A stretch of DNA of 64,000 nt from Desulfobacterium sp. (lineage in GTDB: Bacteria > Desulfobacterota > Desulfobacteria > Desulfobacterales > Desulfobacteraceae). The stretch lies in NCBI GenBank assembly GCA_016342325.1, contig JAEINR010000023.1, positions 1-64,000 on the forward strand, read 5' to 3'. The position numbers were made by a program, and so were the translations under genes. Position 1 is the first letter of the stretch. Every line of letters starts with the position of its first letter. A model generated the notes under the pieces. That model saw only the letters and a list, made by a program, of their open reading frames with translations, did no database searches and was not told where the DNA came from. Below, in pieces: positions 5,539-21,363 of this stretch.

Positions 5539-7316
5539 GGGGCGACCCGGAGGAGGAACTTGGCCCCAGGCAGGACCTGCGGCTCTTGAAGCGCTTTGTT
5601 CCCTATTTTACTCGGAATCGCTGGATGATCGTTTTCTCCATGGTTCTGATGCTGCTTCTTTCCCTTTTCGATATCGCGGTCCCTTATATCACAAAGATGG
5701 CTGTTGATCTCTACATCGTTCCCAGGGACGGGGGGCTCGCCCTGGAAAGTCTCCACATCAGGGGGGCGATGATGGCGGGCGTGGTGCTGGCCATCATCGC
5801 CGTTGCAAGGTTTGTGACAAGCTTTGTCCAGATCATGGTGATGGAGCTTGCGGGCCAGAAAATCATGCACGATCTTCGCGTCCGGATTTATGAACATATC
5901 CAGCGGCTTCCCATGGTTTTTTTCACCAAAAATACCGTGGGTCGCCTCTCCACCCGGGTGACCAACGATATCCAGAACATGCAGGAGATGTTCACCACCA
6001 TCATCACCTTTGTGATGAAGGATATCTTTACCCTTGTCGGGATCGTTATTATCCTGTTTTACATGGATGTAAGGCTTGCCTTGGCCGTTCTTGGGATACT
6101 TCCCTTTGTGGTCTGGACCACCGTTTTTTTTTCCGCAAGCTCCAGGGAGGTGTTCAGGAGCCTGCGGGTTAAGATCGCCGAGATTAATTCCATGTTTTCC
6201 GAATCCTGCGGCGGTATCAGGGTGATCCAGCTCTTTTCCGGCCAAGAAAGGATCAAACAGGAATTCAAGGCCCTTAACCACGAGAATTTCCTGGCCGGCA
6301 TGGGGCAGATAAAGCTCTTCGGCCTCTTCATGCCCGTGGTGGACCTGTTCGGTTCCCTGGCCCTTGCCATTGTGATCTTCTACGGCGGCGGCCGGGTGGT
6401 GTCCGACCAGCTGAGCCTTGGGACCCTGGTCGCCTTCATCTCCTATTCCAAGATGTTTTTTCGCCCTGTCAGGGATATCGCTGAAAAGCACAACATCCTC
6501 CAGAACGCCCTGGCATCCGGGGAGAGAATCGTTGAAATATTTGATGAGCAGGAGGCCGATCCGGGAGGAAGCACCGGGCTTAGCCGCATCGACACCATTG
6601 AGTTCAAGGCGGTATCCTTTGCTTACCAGCCGGGAACTCCCGTCCTGGACCGGGTGTCGTTTTCTGTCAAGGTGGGTCAATCCCTGGCGATTCTGGGGCC
6701 AACCGGCTCAGGTAAGACATCGCTGATTAATCTTATCGTCAAGTTTTACCCAAGGACAGGGGGGGACATTTTAATAAATAACAGGGGTATCGATAGCTTT
6801 TCCATCCCGTCCTTAAGGTCCAGGATCGCCCTGGTTACCCAGGACCCTTATCTTTTCTCCGGCACCATCAGGGAGAATATCCTGCCCCAGAATAGCACCA
6901 TGACGGACTCGGAGTTTGACCGGATTGTTGAACTTTCCCACGCCGAATCCGTCATCGACAAGCTTCCCCAGGGGGCCGACACCCGGGTGAGCCAGGGAGG
7001 CACCTCCCTCTCCAGCGGAGAGCGGCAGCTGATCTCCATTGCCAGGGCCTTTGCCCACCGGCCCGAGCTCATCATCTTTGACGAAGCCACCTCCTACGTG
7101 GACACGGAATCCGAAGAGAGGATCAGGAGTGCCATGTCCCGGCTTAAGGAGAACCGAACCTCCATCACCATCGCCCACAGGCTTAGATCTGCGGTCACGG
7201 CGGACTGGATCATCGTGTTGAAGCAGGGGCGGGTCGCTGAGGCGGGCGACCATGGAACCTTGATGAAAAACAGGGGGTTTTACCACCGTCTCCACGTCCT
7301 GGACAATCCAGAATGA
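5523..7316 (+). CDS. ABC exporter half-transporter, MdlB-like (canonical Walker B)
   Basis: A 597-residue partner of the preceding gene, with six membrane helices and a C-terminal ATPase domain. Walker A is GPTGSGKTS (near residue 390), Walker B is LIIFDEATSYVD with the catalytic Glu, and the signature is LSSGERQ, the MdlB-type variant of LSGGQ. A canonical subunit paired with a degenerate one fits a heterodimeric exporter with one active hydrolysis site. The ATG at 5523 follows a good purine-rich site (ggaaggggggg); a second ATG at 5535 is possible. It overlaps the upstream gene by 16 bases. Confidence 0.88.
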   Translation: MGGTMRGDPEEELGPRQDLRLLKRFVPYFTRNRWMIVFSMVLMLLLSLFDIAVPYITKMAVDLYIVPRDGGLALESLHIRGAMMAGVVLAIIAVARFVTSFVQIMVMELAGQKIMHDLRVRIYEHIQRLPMVFFTKNTVGRLSTRVTNDIQNMQEMFTTIITFVMKDIFTLVGIVIILFYMDVRLALAVLGILPFVVWTTVFFSASSREVFRSLRVKIAEINSMFSESCGGIRVIQLFSGQERIKQEFKALNHENFLAGMGQIKLFGLFMPVVDLFGSLALAIVIFYGGGRVVSDQLSLGTLVAFISYSKMFFRPVRDIAEKHNILQNALASGERIVEIFDEQEADPGGSTGLSRIDTIEFKAVSFAYQPGTPVLDRVSFSVKVGQSLAILGPTGSGKTSLINLIVKFYPRTGGDILINNRGIDSFSIPSLRSRIALVTQDPYLFSGTIRENILPQNSTMTDSEFDRIVELSHAESVIDKLPQGADTRVSQGGTSLSSGERQLISIARAFAHRPELIIFDEATSYVDTESEERIRSAMSRLKENRTSITIAHRLRSAVTADWIIVLKQGRVAEAGDHGTLMKNRGFYHRLHVLDNPE

Positions 7317-17349: not shown

Positions 17350-17379
17350 TTGACAATACCCGGTGCCATGCTCTATATG
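17350..17379 (+). promoter_or_regulatory. Putative promoter of the riboswitch transcript
   Basis: TTGACA at 17350-17355, an 18-base spacer and TATATG at 17374-17379, upstream of repeat A and the cobalamin riboswitch. Confidence 0.45.
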
Positions 17380-17429
17380 GTTACACAATGAACAGGTGCA
17401 AATCCATGTGCGAAAGCATTTATTGCTCT

Positions 17430-17490
17430 GGTCAAACCAATTGATACCGCTACCTATTAATGATGCTGGGTTGGTATCACGTCATTTGAC
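17430..17490 (+). repeat. Short intergenic repeat, family A, with inverted flanks
   Basis: Contains aattgataccgctacctatt followed by aatgatgctggg, alignable with copies at 24870 and 8760. In this copy the ends are inverted repeats (ggtcaaa and tgatacc on the left, ggtatca and tttgacc on the right), so it can fold into a long hairpin. It lies in the leader between the promoter and the riboswitch. Confidence 0.5.
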
Positions 17491-17499
17491 CGGCACTAT

Positions 17500-17662
17500 A
17501 GTAACGTTAAAAGGAAAGAGGGGGAAGATCCCTCGCATGCCAGCCGTTGCCGTGATCGGGGACAAACGCCGCACAATGCCACTTGGGAGTCGCTTTAAAC
17601 CCTAACTCTCCCTGGGAAGGCGCGGCAGTTTGGATGATCCGTAAGCCGGAAAGCCTGCCTGT
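17500..17662 (+). promoter_or_regulatory. Cobalamin (adenosylcobalamin-type) riboswitch
   Basis: The B12 box is clear as gtaagccggaaagcctgcct (17641-17660). It is preceded by gccact at 17578 and gggaaggcg at 17614, spaced as in cobalamin riboswitch cores, and by the purine-rich ttaaaaggaaagagg 5' region. It lies about 120 bases upstream of the TrpD-like gene. No U-tract terminator is obvious after it. A gcgccc/gggcgt hairpin (17724-17749) lies just before the gggagg ribosome binding site, so control of translation initiation seems more likely. Cobamide should repress the downstream genes. Confidence 0.85.
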
Positions 17663-17783
17663 TCATGAGTGTGTCTTAAGGATTCTTGCTGGATGTTATC
17701 CCAATCGATTACCGGTCATGGGTGCGCCCTTTTGCAGAACTTTGGGCGTCTCTTCGGCTGGCTGACTCTATTGGGAGGTTAGC

Positions 17784-18884
17784 ATGAACATGGAGCAGAA
17801 TCGGGAATTTGGCGCAGTCATCACCCGTCTTATTCAAAAACAGGATCTTACACGAACCCAGGCAAAGGGTGCCTTTGAAACCCTTCTAAACGATAGGACC
17901 ACCCCCATGCAACAGGGAGCCTTCCTTGCCGCCCTTACGGCAAAGGGGGAGACCGAACACGAGGTGGCAGGCGGCTGGGAAGCTATTTACAGCCTGGACA
18001 CCGCCAAGGTTTCCTTAACGACCGCAACGCCGGTTGTCGAGAACTCGGGCACGGGCATGGACACCTTCAAGACCTTTAACATCAGCACGGCCGCCTCCCT
18101 TATTGCCGCTTCCCAGGGCATTCCCATGGCAAGGCACGGGGCAAGGGCCATCACCTCGTCCCGGGGAACCGTTGACATGGTCGAGGCCCTGGGGGTGGAT
18201 GTGGAGTGCAGCCCGGACTTGGTTGCCCAAAGCATTGAAACAGTGGGCATCGGTATTTTTAACGGAATGAGCCCCAGGATCCATCCCATGGCCCTTGGCA
18301 GAATCCTTTCCCAGATCAATTTCGGTTCCACATTGAATATCGCAGCGTCCCTTGCAAATCCGGCCCTGCCAAGGCTCGGGGTGAGGGGGGTCTATTCCCA
18401 GGAGATGATCGTGCCTGTTGCAAGGGTGATGAAGGAGATCGGGTATGAGAGGGCCCTTGTGGTCCACGGTTCTGTTTTCGGTACCGAGCTTGGTATGGAC
18501 GAGGCCTCGGTGTGCGGCACCACCTTTTGTGCTGAGTTGTCCCGGGATGGAGAGATTCGCGAGTACAGCTTCGCGCCCAGCGCCTTTGGCATGGGGGATT
18601 TTGACCCCAGGGATCTTACCCCGGACACGAACTGCGACCTTGAGTCAAGGCGATTTGTCAAACTTCTCAGGGCAGGGGAGGAGGGGGCCAGAACCGAGGC
18701 CGCCATCCTTAATGCTGCCCTGATCTTTTATATCGCCGGTAGGGAGCCAACCCTGGACAAGGGGGTTGCCAGGGCAGCCAAAGCATTGAAGAGCGGGGCG
18801 GCCTTTGATTGCCTGGAGCGATGGGTGGCCACCCAGACCCGGGCCCCTGAAGCCGGCCTTGCAACACTTAAGTCATTCATCTAA
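17784..18884 (+). CDS. TrpD-like phosphoribosyltransferase under a cobalamin riboswitch
   Basis: A 366-residue member of the anthranilate phosphoribosyltransferase fold. It keeps the PRPP/Mg loop as NSGTGMDTFKTFNISTAA, then RHGARAITSSRGTVDMVEALGV and the YERALVVHG and DEASVCG stretches. The aromatic-substrate segment is altered: SPRIHPMALGRI replaces the usual AP..HPA..... It does not sit with other trp genes. Being behind a B12 riboswitch and close to a CobT domain, it is inferred to act in cobamide lower-ligand metabolism, for example phosphoribosylating an aromatic precursor. True TrpD activity is not excluded. The start has a strong gggagg site. Confidence 0.8.
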   Translation: MNMEQNREFGAVITRLIQKQDLTRTQAKGAFETLLNDRTTPMQQGAFLAALTAKGETEHEVAGGWEAIYSLDTAKVSLTTATPVVENSGTGMDTFKTFNISTAASLIAASQGIPMARHGARAITSSRGTVDMVEALGVDVECSPDLVAQSIETVGIGIFNGMSPRIHPMALGRILSQINFGSTLNIAASLANPALPRLGVRGVYSQEMIVPVARVMKEIGYERALVVHGSVFGTELGMDEASVCGTTFCAELSRDGEIREYSFAPSAFGMGDFDPRDLTPDTNCDLESRRFVKLLRAGEEGARTEAAILNAALIFYIAGREPTLDKGVARAAKALKSGAAFDCLERWVATQTRAPEAGLATLKSFI

Positions 18885-18886
18885 CT

Positions 18887-18960
18887 TTTTAGCTCTGATT
18901 CTCGTGTTATTTAGACAGGAGAATCAGGAAACTTTTTTGGTCCGGCTTGTCCTGATTAGG
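18887..18960 (+). repeat. Dispersed hairpin repeat, family B (copy 1)
   Basis: A stretch of about 74 bp of the form ttagctctgattctc, loop, gagaatcag, then a T-rich run and cggcttgtcctgatta. The arms ctgattctc/gagaatcag are perfect and followed by acttttttgg, so it can terminate transcription. Close relatives lie at 30536-30608 (+) and 51294-51370 (-), each just beyond a gene end. Confidence 0.7.
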
Positions 18961-18968
18961 GGGTAACA

Positions 18969-19175
18969 ATGGAGACAACACTGTTGATCATCAAGAACCA
19001 TGACCAGTATATCCGGGTCAAGGGGGAGGACTACCAGGTGTGCAACCTTGACAAGGCAAGCGTATTTCCCATGGATAAACTTGACGAGGTGAAACGCCAT
19101 GTGGACACCATGGAGCAAAACGGGTTTGAACAGCCTGCCATGGCAAAGCTGATTTTAAGGGAAGAGCCGTTTTAA
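18969..19175 (+). CDS. 68-residue conserved-looking protein between TrpD-like and CobT genes
   Basis: A small soluble protein starting METTLLIIKNHDQYIRVKGE. It is acidic/mixed in charge with no signal peptide, membrane helix or Cys cluster (one Cys). A good site (agggggtaac) precedes the ATG. No family is recognised. Its place between the TrpD-like and dehydrogenase-CobT genes, in the same direction, suggests it belongs to that locus, although the family B hairpin separates it from the first gene and may reduce read-through. Confidence 0.55.
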   Translation: METTLLIIKNHDQYIRVKGEDYQVCNLDKASVFPMDKLDEVKRHVDTMEQNGFEQPAMAKLILREEPF

Positions 19176-19242
19176 ATTTTTCGATTTTTGCTTTTTTGCA
19201 TAATGCTTAACGCTTTTGAGAGAAGCCCAGGAGGGGAATAGG

Positions 19243-21363
19243 ATGAAGAAACTGGTGTTGACCGGGCTGAAACGGTTTTCCATAAACGAGGCGCCCCTGC
19301 CCGAACCCGGGCAGGGTGAAAAGCGGCTGCGGGTGCTGTTCTGCGCGGTTTGCAGGACCGATGCCAAGATGTGGAGCCAGGGTCATCGGGACCTTGTCTT
19401 TCCCAGGGTGATGGGCCATGAGGTGGTTGGAGAAGATGACCAGGGCAAACGGTTCGTCATCTGGCCCGGTACCCGTTGTGGTCGATGTGCCCATTGTGTG
19501 GCCGGCCGGGAGAACCTCTGCGAAACCATGACCATCATGGGGTTTCACAATGACGGCGGGTTTGCCGACCATGTGGTTGCCCCGGAGGCGAGTCTTGTGC
19601 CGGTACCTGATGGACTTGCTTCCTGGATCGCCTGTTTTGCCGAGCCCGTGGGGTGTGTGCTCAATGCCGTGTCAAAGCTGGGTCTTAAATCGGGCCAGCG
19701 GGTGTTGATCTATGGTGGTGGCACCGTGGGCCTGATTGCCGCCCTTGTATGCCGGGATCTGGGCGGGGAGGTTTGTGTCATCGAAAAGAGCGAAGCAAAG
19801 ATTCATCGCCTCATTCCCTTTCTTGAGCGCACCGGCATCGCCTGCATGAAAGACACCCATGAGAGCGAGTTTGATTGTGTAATCAATGCCTGTCCTGATA
19901 CCGCGGCCTTTAGCCTGGGGGTGGTAAAGGCCGGCAAGGGGGCAAAGTACGCCTTTTTCAGTGGGTTGTCCAAGAACAAGACCGTGGAAACTAATCTCGT
20001 GAATCTTCTCCATTATAAAGAGGTCTGCCTCAGCGGTGCCTACGGCCTGACCCGTCAGAACATGGTCCATGCCCTGGCTGGCATGGAGCGGTACCATGAA
20101 ACCCTTGCCATGCTGAAGGAAGAGACCATCCCCCTTGCCGGGGTGGCCTCCATCATGCCCAGGGTGCTTTCAGGGGCGTCCCTCAAGTATGTGGTGGATC
20201 TCTCCATGAACGATCCTGTGAAGGCGCCCAAGGCGTCTAACTGCCCAGCCGTCCCCCCAAACGACGACCTTTCAGCGGCGTCATCCCCTGATCCCGGCAA
20301 ACCCTTTTGGCAGGCCGTGTCCGACCGGGTCCGGCCCGTGGACCAGCGCCTCAGGGCCGCCGCCCAAACCAAGATAGACAACAAGACAAAACCCCTGGGA
20401 GCCCTTGGGGGTATCGAAGATCTGGCCCTTCAGATGAGCCTTGTACAGAAGACCCTCTCCCCGGTTGTGAGAAAAAAGGCGCTCTTTGTGTTTGCCGGAG
20501 ATCACGGCATCACCGAAGAAGGTGTCTCTGCCTACCCGACCGAGGTGACGGCCCAGATGGTGGAGAATTTTCTTTCAGGAGGTGCGGCCATCAATGTGCT
20601 GTGTCGCCACCACGACATTGAAATAAAAATCGTGGACATGGGGGTGAAGGCTGATTTTGATGATCACCCGGATCTGATCCGGAAAAAGGTGGCCCAAGGA
20701 ACCCGGAATTTTGCCCTGGAACCTGCCATGACCCAACAGGAGGTCACAAGGGCCCTTGACAGCGGCATGGAAGTCTTTTTTGCAAGCCATGAAACCTGTA
20801 AAATTGATGTGGTGGGGCTGGGGGAGATGGGCATTGGTAACACCACTCCGGCTTCGGCCATCATCTCCTGTGTCACCGGCATCTCCCCTGGCGAAGCAAC
20901 GGGCCGGGGTACCGGGGTCGACGACCAGGGACTTAAGCACAAGACCGAGGTGATCGAGCGGGCCCTGGAATTTCAGCAGGTTGATCCAAAGAACGGTGTG
21001 GAGATCCTAGGGAAGATCGGCGGGTTCGAGATTGCAGCCATGGCCGGGGCCGCTCTTGCTGCAGCATCAACGGGCACCGCCGTGGTGCTGGACGGGGTGA
21101 TCTCAACGGCTGCGGGCCTTGTGGCTTCGGTGATTAACCCGGATGTGAACGGCTATCTCATCTCGGGGCATAAATCCGTGGAAAAGGCCCAGGAGGCAGC
21201 ACTTAAATTCATGGATCTTGTGCCGGTGGTGGATTTCAGGATGCGGTTGGGGGAGGGCACAGGGGCGGCCCTGACCATGGATATCGTGGATGTCGCCTGT
21301 AAGGTCATGAATGAGATGGCCTCCTTCGACGATGCCGGCATCTCCAAAAAGAATAAGGACTAA
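19243..21363 (+). CDS. cobT: Zinc-type alcohol dehydrogenase fused to CobT
   Basis: A 706-residue two-domain protein. Residues 1-330 are a medium-chain dehydrogenase: catalytic-zinc CAVCRTD and GHEVVG, structural-zinc Cys cluster CGRCAHC...C, and a nucleotide loop YGGGTVGLIAALVC. A Pro/Ala-rich linker (about 335-365) leads to a full-length CobT domain of about 340 residues with FAGDHGITEEGVSAYP, GLGEMGIGNTTPASA and the catalytic-Glu motif RLGEGTGAALT. CobT transfers ribose phosphate from nicotinate mononucleotide to the cobamide lower ligand. The dehydrogenase may process that ligand or its precursor. The ATG at 19243 follows a strong aggagggg site. The upstream riboswitch fits a cobamide role. 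Confidence 0.88.
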   Translation: MKKLVLTGLKRFSINEAPLPEPGQGEKRLRVLFCAVCRTDAKMWSQGHRDLVFPRVMGHEVVGEDDQGKRFVIWPGTRCGRCAHCVAGRENLCETMTIMGFHNDGGFADHVVAPEASLVPVPDGLASWIACFAEPVGCVLNAVSKLGLKSGQRVLIYGGGTVGLIAALVCRDLGGEVCVIEKSEAKIHRLIPFLERTGIACMKDTHESEFDCVINACPDTAAFSLGVVKAGKGAKYAFFSGLSKNKTVETNLVNLLHYKEVCLSGAYGLTRQNMVHALAGMERYHETLAMLKEETIPLAGVASIMPRVLSGASLKYVVDLSMNDPVKAPKASNCPAVPPNDDLSAASSPDPGKPFWQAVSDRVRPVDQRLRAAAQTKIDNKTKPLGALGGIEDLALQMSLVQKTLSPVVRKKALFVFAGDHGITEEGVSAYPTEVTAQMVENFLSGGAAINVLCRHHDIEIKIVDMGVKADFDDHPDLIRKKVAQGTRNFALEPAMTQQEVTRALDSGMEVFFASHETCKIDVVGLGEMGIGNTTPASAIISCVTGISPGEATGRGTGVDDQGLKHKTEVIERALEFQQVDPKNGVEILGKIGGFEIAAMAGAALAAASTGTAVVLDGVISTAAGLVASVINPDVNGYLISGHKSVEKAQEAALKFMDLVPVVDFRMRLGEGTGAALTMDIVDVACKVMNEMASFDDAGISKKNKD

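Follow-up and report, generated by a model that had tools for sequence, protein, structure and literature searches.

In cobamide-producing bacteria, CobT joins the lower base to ribose phosphate taken from nicotinate mononucleotide (NaMN), and riboswitches of the cobalamin family allow expression from their leaders when cobamide is low. BluB is an oxygen-dependent, flavin-destroying enzyme. In the anaerobic systems bzaF-cobT and bzaAB-cobT-bzaCDE, lower-ligand genes sit beside a CobT of their own, while phenolyl cobamides involve ArsAB, a pair of tandem CobT homologues. In Propionibacterium, the base-supplying enzyme and CobT are joined in a single protein, BluB/CobT2 (PMC4657239). The module analyzed here lies in Desulfobacterium sp. 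(assembly GCA_016342325.1), in the first 64,000 nucleotides of contig JAEINR010000023.1, a stretch referred to below as the window. It resembles the bza systems in that putative lower-ligand genes of an anaerobe stand next to their own CobT; BluB/CobT2 in the fusion of an apparent base-supplying partner to CobT; and ArsAB in the employment of CobT-family enzymes for what may be an unusual ligand, ArsA being, together with CobT, among the nearest solved structures of its CobT domain. Unlike the bza systems, however, it has no ThiC-like radical SAM enzyme, a phosphoribosyltransferase and a dehydrogenase being found instead; unlike in BluB/CobT2, the fused partner is a Zn/NAD-binding MDR dehydrogenase; and the host carries a single CobT domain (one PF02277 match) where ArsAB has two in tandem. 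This type of system, in which lower-ligand genes and a CobT are placed under a cobalamin riboswitch, is known, but the enzymes of the module match no named pathway that was found, and a search of the open-licence literature yielded no paper describing the gene set. The module has the appearance of a supply route for the lower base of cobamides that has not been described before.

The module occupies positions 17455-21363 of the forward strand (Table 1). The first-pass annotation had placed a cobalamin riboswitch, a TrpD-fold protein, a small protein and a dehydrogenase-CobT fusion on this one strand, and all four parts, as well as their positions, proved to be right. The riboswitch, which is the sole Rfam match in the window, covers the model over its full length, B12 box included, and scores above the gathering score of 31.5 bits. 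The leader that follows is predicted to fold no more stably than shuffled sequence (z -0.30), and no terminator-like site was found on the forward strand between the riboswitch and the first gene. The fusion can also be read as 715 residues from a TTG codon at 19216; this reading is probably too long, since an AGGAGG site precedes the ATG at 19243. A TRAP transporter just 5' of the module and a putative sensor kinase (identified by reading) on the opposite strand downstream of it both fall outside the conserved set discussed below.

Table 1. Features of the module in the window
Feature	Position	Strand	Basis
Cobalamin riboswitch aptamer, RF00174	17455..17676	+	cmscan 62.2 bits, E 5.4e-13
Leader, aptamer to first gene; presumed expression platform	17677..17783	+	position only
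Class-A TrpD-like phosphoribosyltransferase, 366 aa	17784..18884	+	PF00591 + PF02885
68-residue conserved protein	18969..19175	+	found in related loci; no family match
MDR-CobT fusion, 706 aa	19243 (ATG)..21363	+	PF08240, PF02277 domains
Zn/NAD-binding MDR dehydrogenase domain of fusion	19243..20277	+	PF08240 1.2e-14
MDR-to-CobT linker in fusion	20278..20331	+	domain borders
CobT domain (NaMN:base phosphoribosyltransferase)	20332..21342	+	PF02277, TIGR03160

The first enzyme of the module exceeds the cutoff of the NCBI trpD model TIGR01245 (247.5 bits against 199), a result that invites the explanation that it is an ordinary duplicate of anthranilate phosphoribosyltransferase (AnPRT) that happened to land near cobT. 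The two proteins are indeed alike in fold (AlphaFold2 pLDDT 90; match to the AnPRT fold with TM 0.81-0.85), in the PRPP/Mg motifs GTGxD, N-I-S-T and D-E, and in overall sequence, true TrpD being 29-36% identical, as compared to 46-66% for the orthologues present in 22 of 146 genomes sampled from the host's order. However, a maximum-likelihood tree separates three clades, namely class A, which includes the protein of the window, class B, and true TrpD, with support of 100/99 for the distinctness of class A from TrpD, and the GTGGD motif of TrpD is replaced by GTGMD. In Mycobacterium tuberculosis TrpD, the anthranilate carboxylate is bound by N138 and R193 (PMC9835598). The equivalent positions hold A or S, and L, respectively, in all members of an alignment of 101 class-A sequences, a few rows of which are the same genome counted twice, whereas 9 of 9 true TrpDs keep N and R. 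The residues expected to handle PRPP and Mg (G89, T90, G91, D93, N99, S101, D239 and E240) are invariant in those same 101 sequences, and the Mg site agrees with that of TrpD (PMC9835598). In addition, the host has two TrpD-family genes, the second of which adjoins trpG and trpE and carries normal anthranilate motifs, while the gene of the module is linked to a cobalamin riboswitch and CobT and not to trp genes. The distinction from true trpD on which the first-pass annotation depended was thus borne out; tree, residues and genomic location together rule out an ordinary trpD identity, the chance-duplicate explanation is hardly credible, and the name given by the NCBI model is apparently wrong. 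Because the PRPP/Mg residues are kept, those for the carboxylate are replaced and an AnPRT fold is predicted, PRPP probably remains a substrate of the enzyme, with an acceptor other than anthranilate.

Class-B proteins, characterized by GTGSD and KKGAR motifs, are found together with the same type of MDR in other Desulfobacterota (loci L059-L068, for example L063:6348-8444). These pairs are accompanied neither by a riboswitch nor by CobT, and one class-B protein also lies above the cutoff of the NCBI trpD model.

The gene for the 68-residue protein sits directly behind that of the TrpD-like enzyme and belongs to a conserved family found in 66 related loci, reaching Firmicutes. Its predicted structure (AlphaFold2 pLDDT 96) consists of three strands, a short strand, a helix and a further strand. 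Domain and family-model searches matched no known family, structural comparison gave no trustworthy fold match (best Foldseek E 1.0; best VIA-align Z 4.9), and its sequence profile matched in the PDB only designed and repeat proteins, none with an E value better than 0.02. It is presumably a partner subunit of the TrpD-like enzyme.

The fusion protein consists of a Zn-MDR dehydrogenase (residues ~1-321) and a CobT domain (364-700). In the former, the catalytic residues C37, H59, E60 and E134, the structural cysteines C79, C82, C85 and C93, the GxGxxG motif of the NAD site (G158/160/163) and E181 are fully conserved in 68 relatives, and the domain search indicates that it is not a nitroreductase. 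Threonine dehydrogenase models are among its matches, which raises the question of whether the nucleotide loop receives its aminopropanol or aminoacetone from a threonine 3-dehydrogenase-like MDR, the TrpD-like protein being an accessory; a CobD/CobC-type aminotransferase, recognized by eye in the neighborhood of four loci, two each of class A and class B, would fit such a role. The match, however, reaches 81 bits against a Tdh cutoff of 458, and a supply of linker leaves both the phosphoribosyltransferase and the fusion to CobT unexplained, since the substrate of CobT is the base, not the linker; this explanation is considered very unlikely. The CobT domain itself is strongly predicted (PF02277 1.8e-128, 431 bits; TIGR03160 432 bits against a cutoff of 319), and its LGEGTGA motif is the same as that of Thermus thermophilus CobT. 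The Glu of this motif we take to be the catalytic base, as in work on Salmonella CobT.

When 84,980 species genomes were scanned, 314 relatives were identified, the best 80 of which were kept for study. The usual gene order is TrpD-like protein, small protein, MDR and CobT; 47 loci have MDR and CobT fused, with no stop codon between them, while in some relatives MDR, TrpD-like protein and CobT are encoded by separate, consecutive genes. Of 54 class-A loci searched with Rfam, 46 are immediately preceded by a cobalamin riboswitch of the same orientation, as opposed to none of 10 class-B loci (p 2.9e-7). The eight class-A loci that lack one include a truncated contig (L051) and a locus in which the aptamer core is missing (L099). 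The latter, from a Desulfobacterium sp. MAG, is the closest relative (91% identity of the TrpD-like protein); its riboswitch core is gone at ~5775-5860 between flanks ~93-95% identical to those of the window, which may be either a genuine deletion or the product of a collapsed assembly. In Firmicutes such as Desulfosporosinus lacus, D. hippei and Formimonas, the module consists of riboswitch, MDR and TrpD-like protein, joined in several cases by the small protein, without a neighboring CobT. Clustering of ~97 loci gave no further conserved neighbors beyond the four parts. The riboswitch, the class-A TrpD-like protein, the 68-residue protein and the MDR, usually fused or adjacent to CobT, form a conserved set. 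Of the findings that the first-pass annotation had named as refuting its proposal, namely grouping with true TrpD, nearness to trp genes, a riboswitch that does not score and unconserved neighbors, none was observed.

CobT proteins related to that of the module also occur elsewhere. Four loci (L069, L070, L071 and L074) encode CobTs that are 63-67% identical to it without MDR or TrpD-like protein, and two of them (L069 and L071) have a cobalamin riboswitch immediately in front. Genomes G228 and G229, the latter of Desulfogranum marinum, contain three CobT homologues each (loci L235, L236, L241-L244), one of which is only 36-37% identical to the module CobT and perhaps has a further base specificity.

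The host genome (6.67 Mb in 205 contigs, 99.99% complete) makes it possible to place the module in the context of cobamide synthesis. Its corrin-ring genes lie under a separate cobalamin riboswitch together with a corrinoid adenosyltransferase, genes for cobyric acid synthase and CobU were recognized by eye, and its only CobT is the fused one; the host makes corrins de novo. A search with PF01964, the family of BzaA/B/F and ThiC, returned a single gene, of ThiC type (647 bits; 42-45% identical to BzaF-like proteins, 66% to a ThiC), and no BzaA/B/F in the host genome. Since its sole ThiC-family protein is of ThiC type, the host is, as judged from its genes, a de novo corrin producer without the BzaA/B/F anaerobic lower-ligand genes. 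Two other cobalamin riboswitches of the host precede genes of a different kind. One (G000:C51:6404-6590, minus strand, locus L094; 103.9 bits) is located in front of a Crp-like regulator and putative Tad-type pilus genes, the latter recognized by eye, an unusual member of such a regulon; the other (G000:C106:6756-6975, locus L098) stands before an apparent ABC-2 type exporter pair that has no obvious link to cobamides.

Taken together, the riboswitch linkage, the 47 fusions, the host's only CobT and the missing BzaA/B/F genes lend support to the link with supply and activation of the lower ligand proposed in the first-pass annotation, and it is plausible that an aromatic precursor is provided or altered by the reactions of the TrpD-like protein and the dehydrogenase. 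We consider it slightly better than an even chance that the module is a cobamide-repressed unit for lower-ligand supply and activation, where the base attached by CobT is made or converted in steps that depend on PRPP and NAD. The TrpD-like enzyme would use PRPP and Mg in the fashion of TrpD on a non-anthranilate acceptor, probably an uncharged aromatic amine or azole, to which it would add phosphoribose unless it employs PRPP otherwise. The NAD-dependent MDR would then oxidize either this product or the aromatic compound that precedes it. Once finished, the base would be passed within the fusion to CobT, which would turn it into the alpha-ribotide of the nucleotide loop; the two earlier steps are suggested by family chemistry, residues and the fusion. 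The most speculative step is that the C1' carbon of ribose may enter the imidazole ring, for which parallels exist in the FMN ribityl carbon used by BluB and in the PRPP carbons of indole synthesis by TrpD/TrpF/TrpC. The Firmicutes modules without an adjacent CobT and the class-B pairs, which lack both riboswitch and CobT, speak against the lower-ligand reading, and because of the latter the chemistry of the TrpD-like protein and the MDR may not be specific to cobamides.

The phosphoribosyltransferase could also work in the opposite direction, acting in reverse or as a phosphorylase to free a base, for example of purine type, from a beta-ribotide, with the MDR reducing or oxidizing it and CobT re-attaching the base in alpha configuration. 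Pyrimidine nucleoside phosphorylases and AMP phosphorylase, to which the TrpD-like protein has weak matches, belong to the same fold superfamily, and Desulfitobacterium makes purinyl cobamides without known benzimidazole genes (PMC6389850), while related Desulfosporosinus carry the module. Nevertheless, the nearest family is the PRPP-using TrpD and not the phosphorylases, no specific purine step is evident, and the purine of D. hafniense derived from yeast extract in labeling tests (PMC6389850); such a release of the base appears unlikely. It is also conceivable, if quite improbable, that what the module provides for CobT is a NaMN-like nucleotide or another phosphoribosyl donor, and not the base. 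CobT needs a beta-ribotide donor, and the TrpD-like enzyme, by family chemistry and its invariant PRPP/Mg residues, probably makes beta-ribotides from PRPP; however, NaMN is normally supplied by NAD synthesis, other CobT-containing organisms need no such genes, and the dehydrogenase is left without a role. Base release, linker supply and an alternative donor are each less economical than a lower-ligand module.

Since NCBIfam does not divide BzaF-like proteins from ThiC, the label "BzaF-like" rests on sequence grouping and on adjacency to CobT. Two CobTs are present in nine Desulfobacteraceae genomes that contain the module; one is that of the module in all nine, and the second adjoins a BzaF-like gene in eight, while the sole CobT is the module's in 9 of the 11 single-CobT genomes checked. 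Such relatives, which hold both systems with a separate CobT for each, look as if the base reached them along two unconnected lines, one activating enzyme serving each line. Among the 146 genomes of the order, 2 contain both, 20 the module only, 25 BzaF only and 99 neither; this distribution displays no significant exclusion (p 0.37) and so lends no support to a simple replacement of BzaF by the module.

Desulforapulum (Desulfobacterium) autotrophicum HRM2 carries the full module with its riboswitch and, in addition, a separate BzaF-like/CobT pair; the genome was assigned to this strain through a contig that matches plasmid NC_012109.1 at 100%. Desulfospira joergensenii likewise has two CobTs. 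Krautler, Kohler and Stupperich (1988) are reported to have described 5-methylbenzimidazolyl cobamides from sulfate reducers; D. autotrophicum was reportedly one of the strains of that work, and Desulfobulbus propionicus is reportedly a second producer. The seven-genome genus examined with regard to the latter comprises Desulfogranum marinum and not D. propionicus. D. autotrophicum is listed among active cobamide producers (PMC8123684). As HRM2 carries the module, 5-methylbenzimidazole is a candidate for its product, although it could alternatively stem from the BzaF-like branch. More specifically, the module could be the anaerobic pathway that has so far been missing for 5-methylbenzimidazole or a related benzimidazole, starting from PRPP plus an aromatic amine and requiring neither oxygen nor radical SAM chemistry; this proposal is tentative and its probability is put rather low.

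The lower base decides which bacteria can use which cobamide, and among the organisms predicted to produce cobamides, 42% carry no gene known to make the base or to attach a phenol (PMC6461909). The presence of the module in hundreds of anaerobic species, with D. autotrophicum HRM2, Desulfospira joergensenii and Desulfosporosinus lacus as cultured carriers, makes this gap in lower-base genes directly testable. Furthermore, the module illustrates both the shift of a TrpD fold toward what is probably a new acceptor and a class of genes that is automatically annotated as trpD.
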